Shown piece by piece: positions 93 through 9,691 of a stretch of DNA of 9,691 nucleotides. A program made the translations under genes and the position numbers. Origin of the DNA: Pseudomonadota bacterium. GTDB taxonomy: Bacteria; Pseudomonadota; Alphaproteobacteria; Sphingomonadales; Sphingomonadaceae. The notes beneath the pieces are model-generated. The model worked only from the letters and a program-made list of their open reading frames with translations, did not search any database and was not told the DNA's origin. The DNA lies in the NCBI GenBank assembly GCA_023386515.1, contig JAEWJQ010000335.1, positions 1-9,691 on the forward strand, in the 5' to 3' direction. How positions within the stretch are numbered: position 1 is the stretch's first letter; every line of letters starts with the position of its first letter.

Positions 93-1079
93 TCATTCCA
101 TCATCACCAGCGCCTTGACGAAGCCGCCCGGCTTGTCGCGCGTCGCATCCAGCGCCTCGCCCAGCCGCTCCAGGGGATAGCGATGCGTGTAGAGCGGCGT
201 CGGGTCGAGCCGCCCGCTTGCCACCGCCTCGATCGCCTCGGTCAGGCCGCGCATCTGCACCGCGGGATCGCGCTCGTGGGCGTTGACCACGTCGATCCCC
301 TTCCAGTTCCATTCCTGCATGTTGATCTGCCGCGGCCCGTCCTGGTGATAGCCCGCCACCACCAGCCGGCCGCCGAAGCCAATCAACGCGGTGGCGAGGT
401 CGAGCGGCCATGGCTTGCCGACCGCCTCAATCACCCGCTCGCACAGCGCATCGCCGGTCAGCGCCTTGACCCGTTCGATGATCGCCCAGTGATCGTCCAT
501 CGCGATGGTTTCGGCGGCGCCATAATGGCTCGCGAGGTCGAGGCTTTCCTGCCGCCGCGAAATGGCGATCACCCGTGCGCCCGCATCGCTCGCCAGCTTG
601 GTCAGCACCGCGCCCAGGAAGCCGATGCCGATGATCGCCACCGTCTGCCCGGGCCGGATGTCGCTGCGCCGGAAGATGTTGAACGCGCAGCCGAGCGGTT
701 CGCCGGGAAAGGGCTGGCCGTCGAGGCTCGCCGGCAATTTGGCGACCATGTCCGCGCGCGCCACGTCATACTCGGCGAAGCTGCGGTAGGAGAGGGCGGC
801 GACCCGGTCGCCCACCGCCAGGCCGGTCACACCGTCGCCGAGGGCATCGACCCGACCCCAGCCTTCGTGGCCGAGGCCCCCCGGCTCGCCCGGATAGGTC
901 ATCCAGGGCAGCCCCGCCCAGGGTTCCAGGTTCGAGGCGCAGACGCCGCACCCCTCCAGCTTGAGCCGGACCTCGCCCGGCGCCGGCAGGGGCAGGGGGG
1001 CGTCGGCCATCTCGATCCGACCCGGCGCGGCCAGTACCGAACTCCTTATCATGCGTGCATCCAATTGATTATCGGGCAA
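93..1079 (-). CDS. Zinc-dependent medium-chain alcohol/polyol dehydrogenase (MDR superfamily)
   Basis: 328 residues. The N-terminal GroES-like domain carries what look like the catalytic zinc ligands: Cys47 in GCGVCAS, His71-Glu72 in GHEGWG, and Cys131 in EPLGC. The Rossmann cofactor domain has GIGFLG at 151-156. The end of its second strand reads AISRRQE, with arginines where NAD-specific enzymes usually have an acidic residue, so NADP(H) is suggested. The four-cysteine structural-zinc lobe of classical alcohol dehydrogenases is absent, as in some shorter MDR branches. The start is TTG, chosen because GGAGAG lies five bases before it. An internal ATG at 1052 (MIRSSVL) fits the usual family N-terminus but has no good ribosome site. 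The neighbouring Gfo/Idh/MocA fragment and the glycosidase suggest a sugar or sugar-derived alcohol as substrate; this is inference. Family call is firm, substrate unknown. Confidence 0.9.
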   Translation of the reverse strand: MPDNQLDARMIRSSVLAAPGRIEMADAPLPLPAPGEVRLKLEGCGVCASNLEPWAGLPWMTYPGEPGGLGHEGWGRVDALGDGVTGLAVGDRVAALSYRSFAEYDVARADMVAKLPASLDGQPFPGEPLGCAFNIFRRSDIRPGQTVAIIGIGFLGAVLTKLASDAGARVIAISRRQESLDLASHYGAAETIAMDDHWAIIERVKALTGDALCERVIEAVGKPWPLDLATALIGFGGRLVVAGYHQDGPRQINMQEWNWKGIDVVNAHERDPAVQMRGLTEAIEAVASGRLDPTPLYTHRYPLERLGEALDATRDKPGGFVKALVMME

Positions 1080-1084
1080 TTTGT

Positions 1085-1090
1085 CTCTCC
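1085..1090 (-). promoter_or_regulatory. Ribosome binding site GGAGAG supporting a TTG start
   Basis: On the minus strand GGAGAG is followed by ACAAA and then TTG at 1079. This is a near-consensus Shine-Dalgarno sequence at normal spacing. It favours the TTG over the downstream ATG at 1052 as the start of the dehydrogenase. It sits directly against the likely ATG (1091) of the divergent DUF1003 gene. Confidence 0.6.
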
Positions 1091-1633
1091 ATGAGCGATG
1101 CCGGCATGACCTCGACCCTGCAGGGCAATATCGCCCGCCTGACCGATCGCGCGGCGCGCGACAGGGCGGCGGCGCCCTGGTCGGCGCGGTTGGCGGACCG
1201 GATCACCCGCTTCACCGGGTCGATGACCTTCGTGTTGCTGCATCTGATCGTCTACGGCCTGTGGATCGTCGCCAATTGCGGTTGGCTGCCCGGCGTACCG
1301 CGCTTCGATCCCACCTTCGTCATCCTGGCATCGGAGGCGTCGGTGGAAGCGATCTTCCTGTCGACCTTCGTGCTCATCAGCCAGAACCGCATGGCGGCGG
1401 TCGCCGATCGCCGCGCGGACCTCGACCTGCACATCAACCTGCTCGCAGAGCATGAACTGACCCGGCTGGCGACCCTGGTCGCGCGGATCGCCGAGCGGGT
1501 CGGCGTTGCGGTCGACGATCCGGCCTTTCACGAGATCCAGCGCGATGTCGCGCCCGAGCAGGTGCTCGACGTGATCGACGCTCATTCCGCCGCGACGGCA
1601 GAGGGCAAGACGTCGGATCGCGCCGGTGCATAG
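1091..1633 (+). CDS. DUF1003-type small membrane protein
   Basis: 180 residues from the ATG at 1091. GTG at 1055 and ATG at 1106 are also possible, and none has a clear ribosome site. After a charged N-terminal segment come two hydrophobic helices at about residues 44-62 (GSMTFVLLHLIVYGLWIV) and 75-97. The second runs into SQNRMAA, followed by an acidic/basic amphipathic stretch with ADLDLHINLLAEHE. The pair of helices followed by SQNR and a D-x-x-x-N-x-x-AE stretch is characteristic of DUF1003 proteins, which are inner-membrane proteins of unknown function. It is the only plus-strand gene within the minus-strand run. Its 3' end overlaps the glycosidase gene tail-to-tail by 52 bp, and its start lies 11 bp from the dehydrogenase start. 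Its own promoter would have to lie inside the dehydrogenase gene. Confidence 0.85.
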   Translation: MSDAGMTSTLQGNIARLTDRAARDRAAAPWSARLADRITRFTGSMTFVLLHLIVYGLWIVANCGWLPGVPRFDPTFVILASEASVEAIFLSTFVLISQNRMAAVADRRADLDLHINLLAEHELTRLATLVARIAERVGVAVDDPAFHEIQRDVAPEQVLDVIDAHSAATAEGKTSDRAGA

Positions 1634-2511
1634 CGGTCGATCATCCAGGCGCAGAAATCCGCGAAGGCCTGCGGGTCCTTGGCCGCGCTGGTATGATGCG
1701 GCTCGATGCCGAGGTGTTCGGGCGTGAAGCAGAAGGTGACGGTGACGTCGAAGTCGGCGCGCGCCTCCATCTGCCGGTCGAACCAGTCGATCGCGTCAGG
1801 ACGGAAGCTGTCCGCCCAGCTGAGGCCGGTGCGCAGCCGTCGGGTGCCGAGCCGCTTCATCCAGGCGACCGCCTCGTCCAGCCGCGGGTCCTGGTAATGG
1901 AACCACTGCATCAGGCCCATGCGATCCGCGACCTTCGCATAGTCGTCGAGCGCGGGCTTGGCCGTGCCGTCCTCGCGGATCAGACCCATGTAGAAATGCC
2001 GGTAATAGCTCGACCCCTCCGCCTCGCGGTGGCGCGTCGTCGCGCCCCAGGCGTGCGGTAGGTCGTAGAGCGAATACCAGAACACCCGCGGCACCCGGTC
2101 GAGCAGCAGCTCGGCGGTCTTGGCGAAGCCGAACACCTGCACCTCCTCGGCGCCGAAGCTGCCGACGCCGACCTCGGTCGCCCAGATCGGCTTGTCGGGG
2201 CAGACCGCCTCGATCTCGGCGATCTTGTCCGGCCAGGCGTGGATCGGCCACAGATTCCAGTCGAGCGGGAAGCCATGCACGGCGACGACGTCGACCGCGT
2301 CGAGCGCGCCGTGCGCGCGCATCCGGTTGACCCAGTCTGGATCGATGGGGCTCATTCCGCCGAGCACCCGCGTCTCCGCCGGGTTCATCTCGCGGATCGC
2401 GGCGCCGGCACGGATCACCGTGTCGGCGAACTTCGACCAGTCGGGGTCCACCACCGGGTCCCAGTGCGATTTGTTGTTCGGCTCGTTCCAGATCATCGCC
2501 GCTTCGATCAT
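1582..2511 (-). CDS. Clan GH-A-like glycoside hydrolase (beta-xylosidase-like), apparently circularly permuted
   Basis: 309 residues, no signal peptide, so probably cytoplasmic. IWNEPNN at residues 7-13 is the strand-4 motif of clan GH-A TIM barrels, with Glu10 as likely acid/base. IWATEVG at 109-115 is the strand-7 motif, with Glu113 as likely nucleophile. Between and after them are plausible strands 5 (RVLGGMSP), 6 (VDVVAVHGFP) and 8 (RVFWYSLYDLP). Strands that normally precede WNEPN appear instead at the C-terminus: RRLRTGLSW (about 224-232) and FDVTVTFCFTPEH (about 254-266), followed by the helix FADFCAWMIDRYA. The order therefore looks like 4-5-6-7-8-1-2-3. The ATG overlaps the methyltransferase stop as ATGA, so translation is probably coupled. 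The 3' end overlaps the convergent DUF1003 gene. Substrate unknown; it may trim or recycle the glycoside made by this locus. Hydrolase fold is well supported; beta-xylosidase is only a resemblance. Confidence 0.8.
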   Translation of the reverse strand: MIEAAMIWNEPNNKSHWDPVVDPDWSKFADTVIRAGAAIREMNPAETRVLGGMSPIDPDWVNRMRAHGALDAVDVVAVHGFPLDWNLWPIHAWPDKIAEIEAVCPDKPIWATEVGVGSFGAEEVQVFGFAKTAELLLDRVPRVFWYSLYDLPHAWGATTRHREAEGSSYYRHFYMGLIREDGTAKPALDDYAKVADRMGLMQWFHYQDPRLDEAVAWMKRLGTRRLRTGLSWADSFRPDAIDWFDRQMEARADFDVTVTFCFTPEHLGIEPHHTSAAKDPQAFADFCAWMIDRYAPARSDVLPSAVAAE

Positions 2512-3293
2512 GCTTGCCCCCCGTGCTGCGGATAGACGGCCATCGGCCCGTATTCGGCGTAAGGCACCGGCGCGGTGCGGCAGAGATAGACCTCAGCCTC
2601 CGGCTGGCCCAGGATCGTGAAGCCGGCCGCGCGCAGCATCGCCGCGCTGCACGCCGCATTGGGCGCCCACCAGTTGGTCCAGTCGTGCGCGAACTCGCGC
2701 TCGATGAAATGCATCTTCGGATAGCCCGGCTCGTCGAAGAAGGCGGGCGGCCGGTGCGTGCCGGGCAGGTGGAACGGATGATCCTCCGGCACCGGATAGA
2801 CGTCGCGCGACCCCTGCTGCATCGTCTGGAACAGCATCAGGTCGCCGGCGACATGCTCGCGGATCAGGTCGAGCGCCAGCAGCGGATGGCGCAGATGGTA
2901 AAGCACGCCCATGAAGATGACGAGGTCGAACCGCTCGCCCAGCGCACCGACGTCATAGACCGACAGATTGCGCAGCTCGACGTCGTCGAAGCCCAGCGCC
3001 TTCGTCGCCAGCCGCGCCTGCGCCAGATAGCGGTCGTCGCTGTCAATGCCGAGCACGCGCGCCGCGCCGCGCCGCTTCATCTCGACCGCATAGAAGCCCG
3101 CGTTGCAGCCGATGTCGAGCACGCTCTTGCCCGTCAGGTCGGAGGGTAAAGCATCGGCGAAGCGCGCGAATTTGAAGCGCGGATAGTCACCAAGGAAATG
3201 GTCGGGCGCGGTATGGATGCCGTGGCCAAGGTCGATGTTGTGAAACCATGGGCCCAGCCGATCGACCTCGGCGCGCAGCATATCTGGCGTCAT
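2508..3293 (-). CDS. Class I SAM-dependent methyltransferase, CmoB-like (resembles the TIGR04290 group)
   Basis: 261 residues. SAM-binding motif I is VLDIGCNAGFYAVEM (58-72), followed by LGIDSDDRYL at the end of strand 2 with the expected acidic residue. FDLVIFMGVLYHLRHPL (122-137) closely resembles the corresponding segment of CmoB, the tRNA wobble-uridine carboxymethyl transferase. The N-terminal WFHNIDLGHGI (16-26) and the Trp/His-rich stretch near 196-211 recall the TIGR04290 methyltransferases, which I associate from memory with glycan gene neighbourhoods. The short length and the flanking genes argue against tRNA modification and for a sugar O-methyltransferase; that is inference. The start overlaps the phosphatase stop (ATGA) and the end overlaps the glycosidase start (ATGA), so the three are probably translated as a coupled unit. 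Confidence 0.85.
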   Translation of the reverse strand: MTPDMLRAEVDRLGPWFHNIDLGHGIHTAPDHFLGDYPRFKFARFADALPSDLTGKSVLDIGCNAGFYAVEMKRRGAARVLGIDSDDRYLAQARLATKALGFDDVELRNLSVYDVGALGERFDLVIFMGVLYHLRHPLLALDLIREHVAGDLMLFQTMQQGSRDVYPVPEDHPFHLPGTHRPPAFFDEPGYPKMHFIEREFAHDWTNWWAPNAACSAAMLRAAGFTILGQPEAEVYLCRTAPVPYAEYGPMAVYPQHGGQA

Positions 3294-4097: not shown

Positions 4098-5213
4098 ATG
4101 ACCGAGACGGTGCTGATCACCGGCGGCGCCGGATTCATCGGCCGCTTCGTCGGTGAAGAATTGCTTCGCCGCGGCAACCGCGTCCGCGTGCTCGACAGCC
4201 TGATCCCGCAGGTGCACGGCCATGTCGACCGCCCGCCCTTGCTGTCCGACGAGGTGGAGCTGATCCGCGGCGATGTCCGCGACGGCGATGCCGTGGCGCG
4301 GGCGCTCGCGGGCGTGGACAGCGTCATCCACCTTGCCGCGGAGGTCGGCGTCGGCCAGTCGATGTACGAGGTCGAGCGTTATACCTCGACCAACGACGTC
4401 GGCACCGCCGTGTTGTTCGAGCGGCTGATCGATCGTCCCGTGCGGCGCGTGGTCACCGCCTCCTCCATGTCGATCTACGGCGAAGGCCTGTATCGCGACG
4501 CCGACGGCGCGATGCGCGAGGATGTCGAACGTGGCGCGGTGCGCGACGGCATGGCGAATTGGGATCCGGTCGACGCCGATGGCCGGGCGCTGACCCCGGT
4601 GGCGACGCCGGAATGGAAGCGGCCCAATCTCGCCTCGATCTACGCGCTCAACAAATATGTGCAGGAGCGCACCACCCACATCATGGCCAAGCCCTATGGC
4701 ATCGAGGGCGTGTGCCTGCGGCTGTTCAACGTCTACGGGCCGGGGCAGGCGCTGTCGAACCCCTATACCGGCGTGCTCGCGATCTTCGCCTCGCGGCTGC
4801 TCAACGGCCAGGAGCCGATGATCTTCGAGGACGGGGAACAGCGTCGCGATTTCGTCCACGTCAGCGATGTCGCGCGCGCCTTCGCCGATGCGCTGGTGCT
4901 GCCCGAGGCGGCGGGTGAGACGTTCAACATCGGTTCCGGTCACGACCGGTCGGTCACCGAGGTGGCGCAGGCGCTGGCCCAGGCGATGGGCAAGAACGAC
5001 ATCCGGCCGGAAATCGTCGGAAAGGCGCGGATCGGCGACATCCGCCATTGCTTCTGCGACACGACCCGCGCTGCCGAGCGCCTGGGCTTCCGCGCCGAGG
5101 CGGATTTCATCGCGGGCCTTGCCGAACTGGCCGAATGGGTCGGTGAGCAGACCGCCGAGGACAATGTCGCACAGGCGCGGGCCGAGCTGGAGAAGCGGGG
5201 GCTGGTGGCATGA
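4098..5213 (+). CDS. NAD-dependent nucleotide-sugar epimerase/dehydratase, WbiB-like (dTDP-L-rhamnose 4-epimerase-like)
   Basis: 371 residues, extended short-chain dehydrogenase. GGAGFIG (9-15) binds the dinucleotide, and Asp33 in VLDSL suggests NAD. The active-site serine region is TASSMSIYGEG (120-130) and the catalytic pair is Tyr182/Lys186 in YALNK. Substrate-domain motifs LRLFNVYGPGQ and RRDFVHVSDVARA are also present. The AAEVGVGQSMYEV and SSMSIYGEG segments recall dTDP-L-rhamnose 4-epimerases of the WbiB type, but the exact sugar cannot be fixed from sequence. ATG at 4098 is chosen because it begins MTETVLITGGAG as is usual for the family, although no clear ribosome site precedes it. 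The frame stays open back to a TTG at 4008, which lacks a ribosome site and is almost on the predicted transcription start. It is the first gene of the plus-strand run. Confidence 0.9.
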   Translation: MTETVLITGGAGFIGRFVGEELLRRGNRVRVLDSLIPQVHGHVDRPPLLSDEVELIRGDVRDGDAVARALAGVDSVIHLAAEVGVGQSMYEVERYTSTNDVGTAVLFERLIDRPVRRVVTASSMSIYGEGLYRDADGAMREDVERGAVRDGMANWDPVDADGRALTPVATPEWKRPNLASIYALNKYVQERTTHIMAKPYGIEGVCLRLFNVYGPGQALSNPYTGVLAIFASRLLNGQEPMIFEDGEQRRDFVHVSDVARAFADALVLPEAAGETFNIGSGHDRSVTEVAQALAQAMGKNDIRPEIVGKARIGDIRHCFCDTTRAAERLGFRAEADFIAGLAELAEWVGEQTAEDNVAQARAELEKRGLVA

Positions 5214-5231: not shown

Positions 5232-5337
5232 TCGTCATCCCGGCGCACGCCGGGACCCATGGACACGGTGCCGCCGATCTATCGCGCCACCAGGGTCGTT
5301 GCGTATCCATGGGTCCCGGCTTCCGCCGGGATGACGA
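5232..5337. repeat. Palindromic repeat element 1 (106 bp, REP/BIME- or MITE-like)
   Basis: A 32-base left arm (5232-5263) starting TCGTCATCCCGGC and a 32-base right arm (5306-5337) ending GCCGGGATGACGA are inverted repeats matching at 30 of 32 positions. They are separated by 42 bases. Each arm also folds on itself through CCCGGC/GCCGGG. CGTCATCCCGGC-type repeats are widespread and intergenic in sphingomonads and other alphaproteobacteria. The element begins 18 bp after the first epimerase stop and could act as an RNA hairpin affecting read-through or message stability. It encodes no transposase. Confidence 0.85.
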
Positions 5338-5364
5338 GGGGAGGGCAGCCGTGCGCTTTCCTAT

Positions 5365-5466
5365 TGTCCGTCTTCCCCGCGGAGGCGGGGATCCAGACGC
5401 GCAGGTTTCCGTAAGTGGCGCAACGGCAGCGTCTCTGGATTCTCGCCTTCGCGGCAATGACGGACA
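5365..5466. repeat. Palindromic repeat element 2 (102 bp), diverged relative of element 1
   Basis: The left arm (5365-5400) starts TGTCCGTCTTCCCCGCGG and the right arm (5429-5466) ends GCGGCAATGACGGACA. They pair imperfectly, with about six mismatches and a 2-base gap over some 36 bases. Terminal GTC(A)T/ATGAC and the overall length match element 1, but the arms are more decayed and the core differs. It ends 15 bp before the second epimerase ATG. Together the two elements fill nearly all of the 268-bp gap 5214-5481, where no credible gene and no other signal was found. Confidence 0.75.
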
Positions 5467-5481
5467 AAAAGGCGCGCCGGC

Positions 5482-6549
5482 ATGACCGCTCCCATCCTCG
5501 TCACCGGTGGTGCGGGCTTCATCGGCAGCAACATCGCCGACCGTCTCGCGAGCGAAGGTCACGACGTCCTCATCTACGACCGGCTGTCGCGGCCGGGCGT
5601 CGAGCGCAACCTGGCGTGGCTGCAGGATCGCCACGGCGCGCGGATCACCGCCATCCGCTCCGACATCCGGGACGCCGACACGCTCGCCGGTGCGGTGGCG
5701 GAGGCGCAGGCAGTGTTCCACATGGCGGCGCAGGTCGCGGTGACCACCAGCCTCGACGATCCGCGCGACGATCTGGAGATCAACGTCCTCGGCACCTTCA
5801 ACCTGCTCGAGGCGCTGCGCCGCAAGGGCGCCGCGACGCCTTTGGTCTTCGCCTCGACCAACAAGGTCTATGGCGATCTTGCCGACCTCGACTTTGCGCG
5901 CGACGGCGACACCTATGTCCCCGTCGATGCGGCGGTGCGTGCGCATGGCATCGGGGAGGGGCGACCGCTCGACTTCCACACGCCCTATGGCGTGTCGAAG
6001 GGGGCCGCCGACCAATATGTCCTCGATTACGCGCGCAGCTACGGCATCCCCGCTGCGGTGCTGCGGATGAGCTGCATCTACGGCCAGCGGCAGATGGGCA
6101 CCGAGGATCAGGGCTGGGTCGCCCATTTCTTGATCCGCGCGCTCGAAGGCCAGCCGATCACGCTTTATGGCGACGGGTGCCAGGTCCGCGACATCCTCGA
6201 CGTATCCAACGCGGTGGAGGCCTATCTGAACGCCTGGCGCCGCATCGATGCGGTGCGCGGGCGCGCCTTCAATCTCGGCGGCGGGCCGGCCAATGCCATT
6301 TCGCTGCGGACATTGCTCGCCCATATCGGCGACCTGATCGGGCGGGAGGTCGATGTCTCTTTCGCCGACTGGCGGGCGGGCGACCAGCGTTACTTCGTCG
6401 CCGACACCCGCGCCGCCGATGCCGCGCTCGGCCTGTCGACGAAGCTGCCGTGGCGGGAGGGCGTCGCCAACCTCGCTCGCTGGCTGGCGGTGGAGCGGGG
6501 GCTCAACCATCCGATCGGCGCGCGCGCACCCGAACTGGCGGCGGAATGA
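5482..6549 (+). CDS. NAD-dependent epimerase, CDP-paratose/tyvelose 2-epimerase-like
   Basis: 355 residues, extended short-chain dehydrogenase. GGAGFIG is at 9-15 with Asp33 in YDRL for NAD. The active-site segment is FASTNKVYG (123-131), with Thr126 in the usual Ser/Thr position, and the Tyr169/Lys173 pair is in YGVSK. STNKVYG, PYGVSKGAADQYVLDYAR and MSCIYGQRQMGTEDQGWV closely recall CDP-tyvelose (CDP-paratose) 2-epimerases, which invert C2 of a CDP-dideoxyhexose. Homologues with this signature act on other nucleotide sugars too, so the substrate is not settled, and no CDP-dideoxysugar synthesis genes are visible here. The ribosome site is weak. The gene is separated from the first epimerase by the two repeats and overlaps the next gene by ATGA (6546-6549). 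Confidence 0.9.
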   Translation: MTAPILVTGGAGFIGSNIADRLASEGHDVLIYDRLSRPGVERNLAWLQDRHGARITAIRSDIRDADTLAGAVAEAQAVFHMAAQVAVTTSLDDPRDDLEINVLGTFNLLEALRRKGAATPLVFASTNKVYGDLADLDFARDGDTYVPVDAAVRAHGIGEGRPLDFHTPYGVSKGAADQYVLDYARSYGIPAAVLRMSCIYGQRQMGTEDQGWVAHFLIRALEGQPITLYGDGCQVRDILDVSNAVEAYLNAWRRIDAVRGRAFNLGGGPANAISLRTLLAHIGDLIGREVDVSFADWRAGDQRYFVADTRAADAALGLSTKLPWREGVANLARWLAVERGLNHPIGARAPELAAE

Positions 6550-7649
6550 AGGTTCTCGTCACCACCGACGCCGTCGGCGGCGTCTGGGAGTATAGCGTCG
6601 AGCTAGCGCGCGGCCTCAGCGCCGCGGGTGTCGAGGTCGTCGTCGCCAGCGTCGGGCCGCCGCCGAGTGCGGACCAGCGCGCGATGTTCGCCGCCGCCTC
6701 GTCCTGCACCCTGATCGAGACAGACCTGCCCCTCGATTGGCTATGCGCGGATGCGCCACCCGTCCTGGCCGCGGGCAGGGCGATCGCCGCACTCGCGTCC
6801 GAACTGTCGGTCGATCTGATCCAGCTCAACATGCCGACGCTCGCCGCCGCCGGGCCGATGCCGGTGCCGACCATCGCCGTCACCCATGGCTGTGTCGCCA
6901 CCTGGTGGGAAGCCGCCCGCCCCGGCACGCCATTGGCGCGGAACTATCGCTGGCACAGCGCGCTGACCGCGGCGGCGCTGCGCAACGTCGAACGCGTCGT
7001 CGCCCCCAGTGCCGCTTATGCCGCGATCGTGCGCCGCCACTATGGCCTCGCCGAGGCGCCGCTGGCGATTTACAACGGCCGCACCCCCCTGCGCACCTTC
7101 GACCCGGCCGAGCCGATCGCGGACGTCGCGCTGACGGTCGGGCGGCTTTGGGACGGCGTCAAGAATGCGGCGCTGCTCGACCGGGCCGCGGCGCGGCTGC
7201 CGGTCCCCTTCCTTGCCGCCGGCGCAGCGCGCGGGCCGCATGGCGAGACGATTCGGCTGACCCATCTGCGCGAACTCGGACAGCTCTCCGCCGACCAGAT
7301 CGCCGGCCATCTTGCCAAGCGGCCGGTATTCGTCTCCGCCGCCAGCTTCGAACCCTTCGGCCTCGCGGTGCTGGAGGCGGCGCAGGCAGGTTGCGCCCTG
7401 GTCCTCGCCGACAATCCGACCTTCCGCGAATTGTGGGCCGGTGCGGCGCTGTTCGTCCCGATCGGCGAGGACGGCTGGTGCAGCGCGATCGAGGGGCTGA
7501 TCCTCGATCCCTCCCGCCGCCACGCTTTGGGCGAAGCCGCCCGCAGCCGCGCCGGCCACTACACCCCCGCCGCCACCGCGGCGGCTATGCTCGCGCTCTA
7601 CCGCGACCTGCTCGCCGCGCGTCCCCCCGCCAGCAAGGTCGCCGCATGA
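6546..7649 (+). CDS. Glycosyltransferase, GT4-type (GT-B fold)
   Basis: 367 residues. The N-terminal domain opens with MKVLVTTDAVGGVWEYSVEL, a glycine-rich acceptor-side loop typical of GT4. The donor domain has VGRLWDGVKN (198-207), giving the Arg200/Lys206 phosphate-binding pair. FEPFGLAVLEA contains the E-x7-E retaining-glycosyltransferase motif (Glu269, Glu277), followed by GCALVLADNPTFRELW. No membrane segment is seen, so it probably works in the cytoplasm or loosely at the membrane. Donor and acceptor are unknown. The ATG overlaps the epimerase stop and the TGA overlaps the next ATG, each by 4 bases, implying translational coupling. The same reading frame stays open far upstream (from 5415), but that part is arginine/alanine-rich noise opposite a real gene. 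Confidence 0.9.
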   Translation: MKVLVTTDAVGGVWEYSVELARGLSAAGVEVVVASVGPPPSADQRAMFAAASSCTLIETDLPLDWLCADAPPVLAAGRAIAALASELSVDLIQLNMPTLAAAGPMPVPTIAVTHGCVATWWEAARPGTPLARNYRWHSALTAAALRNVERVVAPSAAYAAIVRRHYGLAEAPLAIYNGRTPLRTFDPAEPIADVALTVGRLWDGVKNAALLDRAAARLPVPFLAAGAARGPHGETIRLTHLRELGQLSADQIAGHLAKRPVFVSAASFEPFGLAVLEAAQAGCALVLADNPTFRELWAGAALFVPIGEDGWCSAIEGLILDPSRRHALGEAARSRAGHYTPAATAAAMLALYRDLLAARPPASKVAA

Positions 7650-8755
7650 GGATCGTCTATTTCACCCACAGCCTCGCCTCCTGCTGGAACCACGGCAACG
7701 CCCATTTCCTGCGCGGCGTGCTCAGCGAGCTGATCGCGCGCGGCCACGACGTGCGCGTATTCGCGCCGGAAAACAGCTGGAGCCTGACCAACCTCTATGC
7801 CGACCATGGTCCCGATGGCCTCGCTGCCTATCGCGCTGCCTATCCGGAGCTCGGCTCGGTCAGCTATCCGGAGGACGCCGACGTCGAGGAGATGGTCGAC
7901 GGCGCCGACCTCGTCCTCGTTCACGAATGGAATGCGCACCGGCTGGTCGCCGATCTCGGCCGCCTGCGCCAGCGCGGCGCACGCTGGTCCCTGCTGTTCC
8001 ACGACACCCACCATCGCGCGGTCAGCGAGCCCGACCAGATGCGCGCCTACGATCTGTCGGGCTATGACGGCGTGCTGGCCTTCGGCGAGACGCTGAGCGC
8101 CGTCTATCGGCAATGGGGCTGGGGCGCACGCGTCTGGACCTGGCATGAGGCCGCCGACATCCGCCGCTTCCACCCGCCTGCTGTCGAGGGGCCGCGCGAG
8201 GGGCTGGTCTGGGTCGGCAATTGGGGCGACGGCGAGCGCACCGAGGAGCTGGAGCGCTTCCTGTTCGAGCCTGCGCGCGCCGCGGGACTGGGCCTCGACA
8301 TCTATGGCGTCCGGTATCCGGTGGAGGCCAGGGCGACGCTGGCCCGATATGGCGCGCGCTATCACGGTTGGGCGCCCAATGCGGCGGCGCCGGCGCTGTT
8401 CGCGCGGGCGCTGGCGACCGTCCACGTGCCGCGCCGTTATTATGCGACCATCTTGCCCGGCATTCCGACGATCCGCGTCTTCGAGGCGCTCGCCTGCGGC
8501 ATCCCGCTCGTCTCCGCGCCGTGGGACGATAGCGAAGGGCTGTTCCGCGTCGGCGAGGATTTCCTGATGGTCCGCTCGGGCGAGGACATGGCCGTCGCGT
8601 TGGGCGTGATCCGTGACGATCCGGACCGCCGCAACGCCCTCGTCGCCGCTGGGCTCGCGACGATCCGCGCCCGGCATACCTGTGCGCATCGCGTCGACGA
8701 ACTGCTCGCCATCGTCGACCGCCTCCACGACACTCCCGCGAAGGACGCCGCATGA
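7646..8755 (+). CDS. CgeB-like glycosyltransferase, first copy
   Basis: 369 residues, GT-B fold. It starts MRIVYFTHSLASCWNHGNAH. The C-terminal donor domain has HVPRRYYATILPGIPTIRVF (from 260) and then EALACGIPLVSAPWDD, with the signature RVFEALACG of CgeB / Glyco_trans_1_2 proteins. The strand LVWVGNWGDGERTEELERF (about 187-205) corresponds to the 'LGN' segment that opens the donor domain in this family. Members transfer sugars in spore-coat, capsule and surface-glycan systems; substrate here is unknown. It is joined to both neighbours by ATGA overlaps. Its N-terminus and its RVFEA region resemble those of the next gene, so the pair probably arose by an old duplication. Confidence 0.85.
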   Translation: MRIVYFTHSLASCWNHGNAHFLRGVLSELIARGHDVRVFAPENSWSLTNLYADHGPDGLAAYRAAYPELGSVSYPEDADVEEMVDGADLVLVHEWNAHRLVADLGRLRQRGARWSLLFHDTHHRAVSEPDQMRAYDLSGYDGVLAFGETLSAVYRQWGWGARVWTWHEAADIRRFHPPAVEGPREGLVWVGNWGDGERTEELERFLFEPARAAGLGLDIYGVRYPVEARATLARYGARYHGWAPNAAAPALFARALATVHVPRRYYATILPGIPTIRVFEALACGIPLVSAPWDDSEGLFRVGEDFLMVRSGEDMAVALGVIRDDPDRRNALVAAGLATIRARHTCAHRVDELLAIVDRLHDTPAKDAA

Positions 8756-9691
8756 AAATCGCCTTCTACGGCTCCAGCCTCGTTTCCTCCTACTGGAATG
8801 GCGCTGCTACCTATTATCGCGGCATCCTCAAGGCGCTGCATGCACGCGGCCACGACATCACCTTTTACGAGCCCGATGCCTTCGAAAGGCAGCAGCATCG
8901 CGACATCGAGGCGCCGCCCTATGCGAAGTCCGTCGTCTACCCGGCGACGGCCGACGCGCTAAATGCCGTGCTGGCCGAGGCGGCGAACGCCGACGTCGTG
9001 GTCAAGGCGAATGGCGTCGGCGTGTTCGACGCCGAACTGCTCGATGGCATCGTCCGCCATGCCCGCGCCGATGCGATCAGGATCTTCTGGGACGTCGACG
9101 CCGCCGCGACGCTGGACGAGATGCGCGCCGACGCCAGTCATCCGGTGCGGCGCGTGCTGCCCGACCTCGACATGGTGCTGACCTATGGCGGCGGCCCGCC
9201 GGTGGTCGATGCCTATCGCGGCTTCGGCGCGGCGCAATGCGTGCCGGTCTACAATGCGCTCGATCCGGAGACGCACCATCCGGTGCCGCGCGACGAACGC
9301 TTCTCCTGCGATCTCGCCTTCCTCGGCAACCGCCTGCCGGATCGGGAGTCGCGGGTGGAGGAATTCTTCCTCAAACCGGCGGCGTTGCTGCCGGAACAGC
9401 GCTTTCTGATCGGTGGCAACGGCTGGGAGAGCAAGGCGATGCCCGGCAACGTCCGCCATCGCGGCCATGTCTACACCGCCGAGCACAACGCCTTCAACTG
9501 CACCCCGCGCGCGGTGCTCAACGTCGCGCGCGACAGCATGGCGCATATCGGCTTCTCGCCGGCGACCCGGGTATTCGAGGCGGCGGGTGCCGCCGCCTGC
9601 CTGATCACCGATGCGGGGGAGGGTATCGAACAGTTCCTGCAACCCGACGCGGAGGTGCTGGTCGCCCGGGACGGCCAGGACGTCGCGGAGC
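8752..9691 (+). CDS. CgeB-like glycosyltransferase, second copy (cut by right edge)
   Basis: 313 complete codons are present with no stop before the window ends. It begins MKIAFYGSSLVSSYWNGAAT and has CDLAFLGNRLPDRESRVEEF (about 186-205), the typical CgeB donor-domain entry. RHRGHVYTAEHNAFNCTPRA and then LNVARDSMA (about 255-263) follow. TRVFEAAGAAACLITD (272-287) and EVLVARDGQD match the end of CgeB domains, so only a short C-terminal part should be missing. The start is fixed by the ATGA overlap with the preceding paralogue. IFWDVDAAATLDEM (111-124) is typical of this subgroup. Sugar donor and acceptor are unknown. Confidence 0.88.
   Translation, partial: MKIAFYGSSLVSSYWNGAATYYRGILKALHARGHDITFYEPDAFERQQHRDIEAPPYAKSVVYPATADALNAVLAEAANADVVVKANGVGVFDAELLDGIVRHARADAIRIFWDVDAAATLDEMRADASHPVRRVLPDLDMVLTYGGGPPVVDAYRGFGAAQCVPVYNALDPETHHPVPRDERFSCDLAFLGNRLPDRESRVEEFFLKPAALLPEQRFLIGGNGWESKAMPGNVRHRGHVYTAEHNAFNCTPRAVLNVARDSMAHIGFSPATRVFEAAGAAACLITDAGEGIEQFLQPDAEVLVARDGQDVAE

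Follow-up and report, generated by a model that had tools for sequence, protein, structure and literature searches.

Several natural circular permutants of enzymes have been described. A passage of PMC2395249 names transaldolases, bacterial beta-glucanases, beta-glucosidases and the thiaminase/phosphonopyruvate hydrolase pair, and asks of a permutant that sequence similarity rise once the sequence has been permuted. Among glycosidases, the GH70 enzymes are presented, in the part of PMC11299179 consulted, as natural permuted relatives of GH13 with their motifs in the order II-III-IV-I. For PslG of Pseudomonas aeruginosa, a passage of PMC9075953 shows that a glycosidase encoded among polysaccharide synthesis genes can be intracellular, and E165 and E276 are key residues for its hydrolytic activity. 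Here, we analyzed a stretch of 9,691 nucleotides from a member of the Sphingomonadaceae (assembly GCA_023386515.1, contig JAEWJQ010000335.1), referred to as the window, and focused on one gene of its minus strand (1582-2511) that encodes a predicted glycosidase of 309 amino acids (aa). We found that this gene almost certainly encodes a complete glycosidase of the clan GH-A type whose (beta/alpha)8 barrel is circularly permuted, with its units in the order 4-5-6-7-8-1-2-3.

By aligning with hhalign a profile of permuted proteins (76 rows) and a profile of normal-order relatives (46 rows), we found two swapped matches in the native order, namely residues 7-193 with normal-order positions 120-300 (E = 3e-43) and residues 196-295 with positions 11-112 (E = 1e-24). 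The next-best alternative had an E of 0.24. The permuted alignment used 76 of 90 representatives, the other 14 being dropped for long tails or unsure starts. Rotation at residue 195 merged both matches into a single one of 282 columns (E = 7e-68, score 462 versus 297). A hidden Markov model (HMM) was also built from the 64 of 122 normal-order sequences that cover the whole domain in one stretch, the 58 incomplete ones being dropped. It scored the window protein at 134 bits in native order (HMM positions 105-282) and at 210 bits when rotated at 195, then in one stretch (2-282 of 291), and a scan in which the cut was moved every 3 residues gave the highest score at 192-195. The pieces are swapped relative to those of the relatives and become one continuous full-length match upon rotation, which is the rise in similarity that PMC2395249 asks for. 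These results bear out the strand order proposed in an initial annotation of this DNA, as well as its placing of the cut in the loop between helix 3 and strand 4.

In the window protein, residues 1-195 (1927-2511, minus strand) hold barrel units 4 to 8 and correspond to residues about 117-300 of the normal-order protein P0145; residues 196-309 (1585-1926, minus strand) hold units 1 to 3 followed by a variable tail and correspond to P0145 residues 11-112. Identity to P0145 is 60/181 in the N-terminal piece and 38/101 in the C-terminal piece, or 35% over 282 columns. Forty aligned columns carry the same residue with at least 90% conservation in both families; the moved piece contributes 13 of these, Arg227, Ser231 and Trp232 among them. 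The initial annotation was right to recognize sequence of strands 1-3 at the C-terminus, but its labels had to be amended: 'RRLRTGLSW' is strand 2, 'FDVTVTFCFTPEH' is strand 3, and strand 1 was located in 'MGLMQWF' (198-204), a segment it had not named. The homologues it had suggested looking for do exist, since we found normal-order proteins in which the counterpart of the C-terminal half of the window protein stands first. The same swapped order is visible in the comparison with PslG, with the N-terminal piece alone matching strongly.

An AlphaFold2 model of the window protein (predicted local distance difference test, pLDDT, 86; predicted template modelling score, pTM, 0.87) has eight strands, at residues 4-7, 47-53, 75-80, 109-114 and 143-146 for units 4-8 and at residues 199-201, 225-231 and 255-261 for units 1-3. 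They correspond one by one to the strands of the normal-order model, both models being predicted, and on these models the fold is the same despite the new termini. The complete triosephosphate isomerase (TIM) barrel 7uek matches the permuted model over residues 3-295, in agreement with the eight-stranded barrel expected from the initial annotation. At E <= 0.001, Foldseek retrieved 337 PDB matches with the normal-order model and 9 with the permuted one.

Three other explanations of the swapped order were weighed. A normal-order gene wrongly cut through an annotation, assembly or frameshift artefact would account for the unusual order and for nothing else, and its probability is negligible because the gene boundaries are conserved. 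The frame runs from an ATG at 2511 to a stop at 1582-1584, and its start does overlap the stop of the upstream methyltransferase gene in an ATGA (2508-2511), as first annotated. Just 27 codons are open upstream of the ATG versus the ~100 residues that strands 1-3 need, which excludes a missed N-terminal part in this frame and upholds the earlier claim. We compared the homologues from 98 loci, three of which are re-fetches, leaving 95 distinct proteins. The start codon aligned with Met1 in 94 loci and lay one codon upstream in the remaining 4, hence within one codon in all 98. Among the matches listed, 119 homologues besides the window protein are 300-336 aa long and cover 94-100% of the query; at least 80% of the query was matched in one place in 97 of the 147 plasmid records with a match, and relatives are encoded by 529 of 531 pattern-matched stretches in the genome collection, the 80 best-scoring ones being retained as loci. 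Moreover, the rate of nonsynonymous substitution (dN) was far below that of synonymous substitution (dS) in four comparisons, with dN 0.017 and dS 0.297 against Sphingomonas sp. MA1305 and dN 0.060-0.172 and dS 0.562-0.700 in three more distant ones, so the reading frame is kept by selection. Equally negligible is the idea that the half-barrels of a TIM barrel are alike, such that pseudo-symmetry would produce a swapped alignment without true permutation: the swapped match is sequence-based and unique by its E-values, the cut scan peaks at one place, and no equally good other rotation was seen. It is also very unlikely that the C-terminal piece forms a separate domain or that strands 1-3 are supplied by another chain. 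A swapped dimer would be compatible with a monomer prediction, but the monomer model is confident as a whole, the 7uek match spans residues 3-295, and the separate domain at residues 195-309 that the initial annotation had named as contrary evidence does not appear in it.

We then considered the catalytic residues. WNEPN lies at residues 8-12 (2476-2490, minus strand) at the end of strand 4, and ATEVG at residues 111-115 (2167-2181, minus strand) at the end of strand 7, both where the initial annotation had put them on the translated frame. Glu10 (2482-2484) is the predicted acid/base and aligns with E165 of PslG, and Glu113 (2173-2175) is the predicted nucleophile and aligns with E276; these roles follow those general in clan GH-A. 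An Asn-preceded Glu after strand 4 and a Glu after strand 7 (strands numbered by homology) are the motifs of that clan. Both Glu and the Asn before the acid/base were invariant in all 76 permuted rows, and Asn9, Glu10 and Glu113 were kept, with no stop, in the permuted gene of 18 out of 18 genomes from the two draws described below. Counterparts of Glu10 and Glu113 were present in 91% and 96% of the 46 normal-order rows, and the pair was kept in 59 and 61 of 64 full-length fused normal-order domains.

Known family profiles captured the protein poorly. It was absent from the matches to GH39 (PF01229), the label that PslG presumably carries, at E <= 10, and its relative P0062 scored 12.9 bits against a cut-off of 26. 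With PF11790 (Glyco_hydro_cc) it reached 16.2 bits, below the cut-off of 21, and P0062 reached 25.4. A linear profile fails to match the permuted protein as a whole and catches the N-terminal piece only, which is one reason why permuted proteins are poorly named. The GH70-type motif order II-III-IV-I was not found in an analysis that included no search with a GH70 profile; the motifs are WNEPN and TEVG, and the protein is homologous to enzymes of the GH-A type.

The normal-order relatives came to light as weak tblastn matches on plasmids that lay inside proteins annotated as epimerases. Two of them (Rhizobium sp. NLR16a and Paracoccus sp. AK26) consist of a normal-order N-terminal glycoside hydrolase (GH) domain and a C-terminal short-chain dehydrogenase/reductase (SDR). 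Two-domain GH-SDR proteins lie at L006:4647-6689 and L005:4671-6662, and many such relatives are named for their SDR half alone ('CDP-paratose 2-epimerase' or 'NAD-dependent epimerase/dehydratase'). The normal-order GH domain used as query retrieved 226 relatives, of which the best 120 were listed and, together with the two fusions, make up the 122 sequences considered for the HMM; names among these matches include Coleofasciculus, an Acidobacteria bacterium and Flavobacterium. The hosts of the permuted gene that are named to genus among the matches listed are ones that we take to be Alphaproteobacteria, one further host being named just 'Pseudomonadota bacterium'. We built a tree from 64 normal-order domains and 27 permuted ones after rotation, and a branch with support 100/100 had all the permuted domains on one side. 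A single origin of the permuted form would be the simplest reading of this tree, which is read without a root. The old termini would have been joined, with helix 8 running into strand 1 near residue 195, and new ones opened in the helix 3/strand 4 loop, probably through tandem duplication and then a shift of the start and the stop to new places. The matches listed included no tandem GH-GH intermediate (best 120; 8000 scored in the homologue searches), which is a weak negative.

To describe the distribution of both forms, we used two draws of genomes. The native query matched 21 of 398 Pseudomonadota genomes, 12 of which had a full-length permuted gene; in G318 and G268 both glycosidase pieces lay side by side in swapped order, and seven genomes gave weak partial matches (G040, G117, G158, G240, G289, G347 and G359). 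G117 was also matched by the normal-order query (28%) and is not among the genomes with a TIGR04290 methyltransferase. The rotated query matched 15 of 385 Alphaproteobacteria. In 8 of them it hit a permuted gene, which showed up as two pieces, in 6 it aligned without a break to a normal-order domain (E 4e-32 to 1.5e-19), and in G480 the match was weak; a second match in G648 was 26-30% identical, in an 801-aa frame. The TIGR04290 methyltransferase was above cut-off in 14 of the 398 genomes, exactly the 12 permuted and 2 normal-order ones, and in 16 of the 385, corresponding to 8 permuted, 6 normal-order only and 2 whose contigs end nearby. It was found in 25 out of 25 genomes with either glycosidase form and above cut-off in none of 14 control genomes, and is a good marker of this cluster. 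Altogether 16 genomes had the permuted form only, 7 the fused domain only and 2 both (18 of 25 permuted), the normal-order query being applied at E <= 1e-10 to the 12 permuted genomes of the phylum draw and at E <= 1e-3 to the 6 added by the class draw. The two forms are largely complementary in their distribution; strict mutual exclusion was ruled out, G712 and G581 holding both. Two genomes had TIGR04290 and no GH match. In G460, just 21 bases of contig precede the SDR2 match, and any GH domain fused to it would have been lost, and in G521 it starts ~3 kb before the methyltransferase, the first 16,000 of its 20,979 bases having been read.

The surroundings of the two forms were compared in the 64 of 80 permuted loci at least 14 kb long and in eight normal-order clusters (L140, L155-L158 and L161-L163). 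The methyltransferase was the labelled gene directly upstream of the permuted glycosidase in 61 of the 64 loci, and nearby were Gfo/Idh (58), dehydrogenase (54), SDR1, SDR2 and GT_A (51 each), histidine phosphatase (48), Ino1 (24) and pyruvyl transferase (16) genes. In the normal-order clusters, SDR2 carries the GH domain as its N-terminal half. This fusion came directly after SDR1 in seven of the eight, with GT_A behind; the methyltransferase lay ~6-9 kb from it, and a relative of the TIGR04295 radical SAM protein was present in six.

On balance, these observations make it likely that the permuted stand-alone enzyme has taken over the task and the place of the fused domain, one genome representing an intermediate state. 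In that genome, G712, a group of SDR1, GH-SDR2, radical SAM and GT_A genes lies ~447 kb from the permuted gene. Its fusion (L206, 7835-9775) is an open frame of 649 aa with an SDR match of the usual length and a GH part ~40 residues shorter, in which AAAPG replaces WNEPN, ITGTG stands at the nucleophile Glu and the His of HGFP is lost; the permuted enzyme keeps both catalytic Glu. G712 would represent a stage at which the fused domain had died and the permuted enzyme was intact. In Sinorhizobium meliloti 1021, whose cluster carries the permuted gene, SDR2 stands alone ~60 bases from SDR1, so that no GH is left before it; yet it groups with the fused SDR2s (96/94, and 92/93 once the fusions of G712 and G581 are included). 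The closest grouping of the dead G712 fusion is with an SDR2 that stands alone, in G620 (100/97). Without the G712 and G581 fusions, the SDR2 tree requires three changes between fused and stand-alone, two forced by starred branches; with them, in a slightly different set of rows, it requires four, all forced. Whether these changes are gains or losses depends on the root. L153 was left out of these trees, as it seems stand-alone just from a contig cut.

Two rival views of the function were also weighed. The permuted protein could be catalytically dead or merely a structural partner of SDR enzymes, which we find improbable given its invariant Glu pair and preceding Asn and the conservation of His79, Trp145 and Arg227 in both the permuted and the normal-order families. 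What speaks for it is the loss of catalytic Glu in the G712 fusion and in some other fused domains, suggesting a non-catalytic role or common decay. More plausible, although still doubtful, is that the permuted and fused forms differ in function and that their complementarity only reflects lineage. Such a difference would fit the histidine phosphatase and Ino1 genes, found near the permuted gene in many loci and unseen in the eight fused clusters viewed, the low identity of normal-order domains to the window protein (~26-36%) and the presence of both forms in G581. It is harder to reconcile with the shared TIGR04290, SDR1, SDR2 and GT_A genes, often accompanied by dehydrogenase and Gfo genes, with the grouping of the Sinorhizobium SDR2, which sits beside a permuted enzyme, with the fused ones, and with the state of the two forms in G712.

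Several observations weigh against replacement or against other parts of this explanation. G581 has the permuted gene together with a fused domain that still holds the nucleophile Glu, so replacement is not strict; this fusion ends at the contig end, with the last ~76 residues of the GH part visible. Some permuted loci have no close SDR2 in the stretch viewed (among them L003, L012 and L073), and there are further differences in gene content between the clusters of the two forms. Among the 64 full-length fused domains, 6 lack at least one catalytic Glu (P0170, P0177, P0178, P0179, P0193 and P0199), so that some fused domains are not active enzymes. The complementary distribution gave a Fisher p of 0.0012, counting both exceptions and G460 and G521 as 'neither', but related genomes are not independent and this p is a guide only. 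Most stand-alone rows entered the SDR2 trees on account of the permuted gene at their loci. A long branch, of 2.0 changes per column, separates permuted from normal-order domains, and the donor of the permuted gene may therefore be an unsampled normal-order glycosidase. Lastly, the model of the permuted protein has a pLDDT below 50 at residues 156-160 and 162-167.

No signal peptide was apparent by eye in the glycosidase and its fused homologue stands in front of an SDR, so the permuted enzyme is probably cytosolic. The epimerase-like enzymes, the glycosyltransferases and, in part of the loci, the genes for inositol-phosphate synthase, pyruvyl transferase and related proteins point to a cluster that makes a surface glycan. 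By analogy with PslG, the enzyme could be active in the cytosol or on the inner membrane, where Glu10 would serve as acid/base and Glu113 as nucleophile. Its target would be a beta-glycosidic bond, hydrolyzed or transferred, in a precursor of the glycan built by the cluster, a proposal to which we give an even chance. Database names such as 'beta-xylosidase' are no evidence of function. In the cluster relatives L001, L003, L011 and L078 we noticed genes for inositol-3-phosphate synthase, pyruvyl transferase and an F420-hydrogenase-like protein, and such genes could be the sign of a glycan with an uncommon inositol or pyruvate modification.

In the window itself, the TIGR04290 family methyltransferase (2508-3293, minus strand; 367 bits against a cut-off of 300) precedes the glycosidase and its own start is overlapped by a histidine phosphatase gene (PF00300; 3290-3895, minus strand). 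We found no open-licence paper on TIGR04290. On the other side lies a zinc-binding dehydrogenase (93-1079, minus strand), a frequent member of the cluster. A DUF1003 gene (1055-1633, plus strand) is tail-to-tail with the glycosidase gene, which it overlaps by ~50 bases (1582-1633). The plus strand carries SDR1, an NAD-dependent epimerase/dehydratase (4098-5213, from the first ATG of its frame), a stand-alone SDR2 (5482-6549) that is 60% identical over 337 residues to the SDR half of fusion P0121, a glycosyltransferase of the family 4 type (6546-7649) and a PF13524 glycosyltransferase (7646-8755). A third glycosyltransferase-like frame (8752-9690) starts with an ATG at 8752 that overlaps the previous gene and continues past the end of the window. 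Two long imperfect inverted repeats (5232-5337 and 5364-5467), with arms of 36 and 39 nucleotides, lie between SDR1 and SDR2 and presumably resemble intergenic repeats of the repetitive extragenic palindromic (REP) type.

Natural permutations of TIM barrels are few, and in most cases neither their route nor the selective cause can still be traced. In the present case, related clusters have kept both forms, with ~35% identity, a strand-to-strand match, a complementary distribution and one apparent transition state, which makes this pair a particularly clear case of circular permutation of an enzyme in nature. It makes testable whether activity was kept, whether freeing from the fusion was favoured, and how a barrel that begins with strand 4 folds. 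We found no description of a permuted clan GH-A enzyme or of this family in the open-licence literature, and one may be in print elsewhere. Permuted beta-glucosidases and beta-glucanases presumably involve a GH3 domain-order swap and a GH16 jellyroll, and are not known to include a GH-A barrel. The permutants listed in PMC2395249 share natural permutation with the window protein, some being TIM barrels and some glycosidases, but that passage leaves the kind of beta-glucosidase unspecified. In the GH70 glucansucrases, too, a glycosidase (beta/alpha)8 barrel has been permuted in nature and relatives exist in both orders, GH13 being the unpermuted one, but these enzymes belong to clan GH-H, synthesize alpha-glucans, are multidomain and extracellular, and have another cut. 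Natural permutation of a glycosidase barrel is therefore already known from GH70, and what is new, as far as we found, is a permuted case in clan GH-A. That it is the first one recognized in this clan, spread over many Alphaproteobacteria, where it repeatedly displaced a fused homologous domain and left a dead fused copy in one genome, is a combination that we regard as evenly balanced between right and wrong. Among relatives of solved structure, PslG (PDB 4zn2, 5bx9 and 9g17) comes closest in sequence, and also in fold when the normal-order model is compared; its catalytic residues align with those of the window protein and its gene lies in a polysaccharide synthesis cluster, but it has the normal order, is larger, acts on PSL and belongs to another cluster. 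Closest of all, the GH domain of the GH-SDR fusions shares homology over the whole barrel, the catalytic pair and clusters with TIGR04290 and SDR genes, and differs in its normal strand order and in being fused in front of SDR2.
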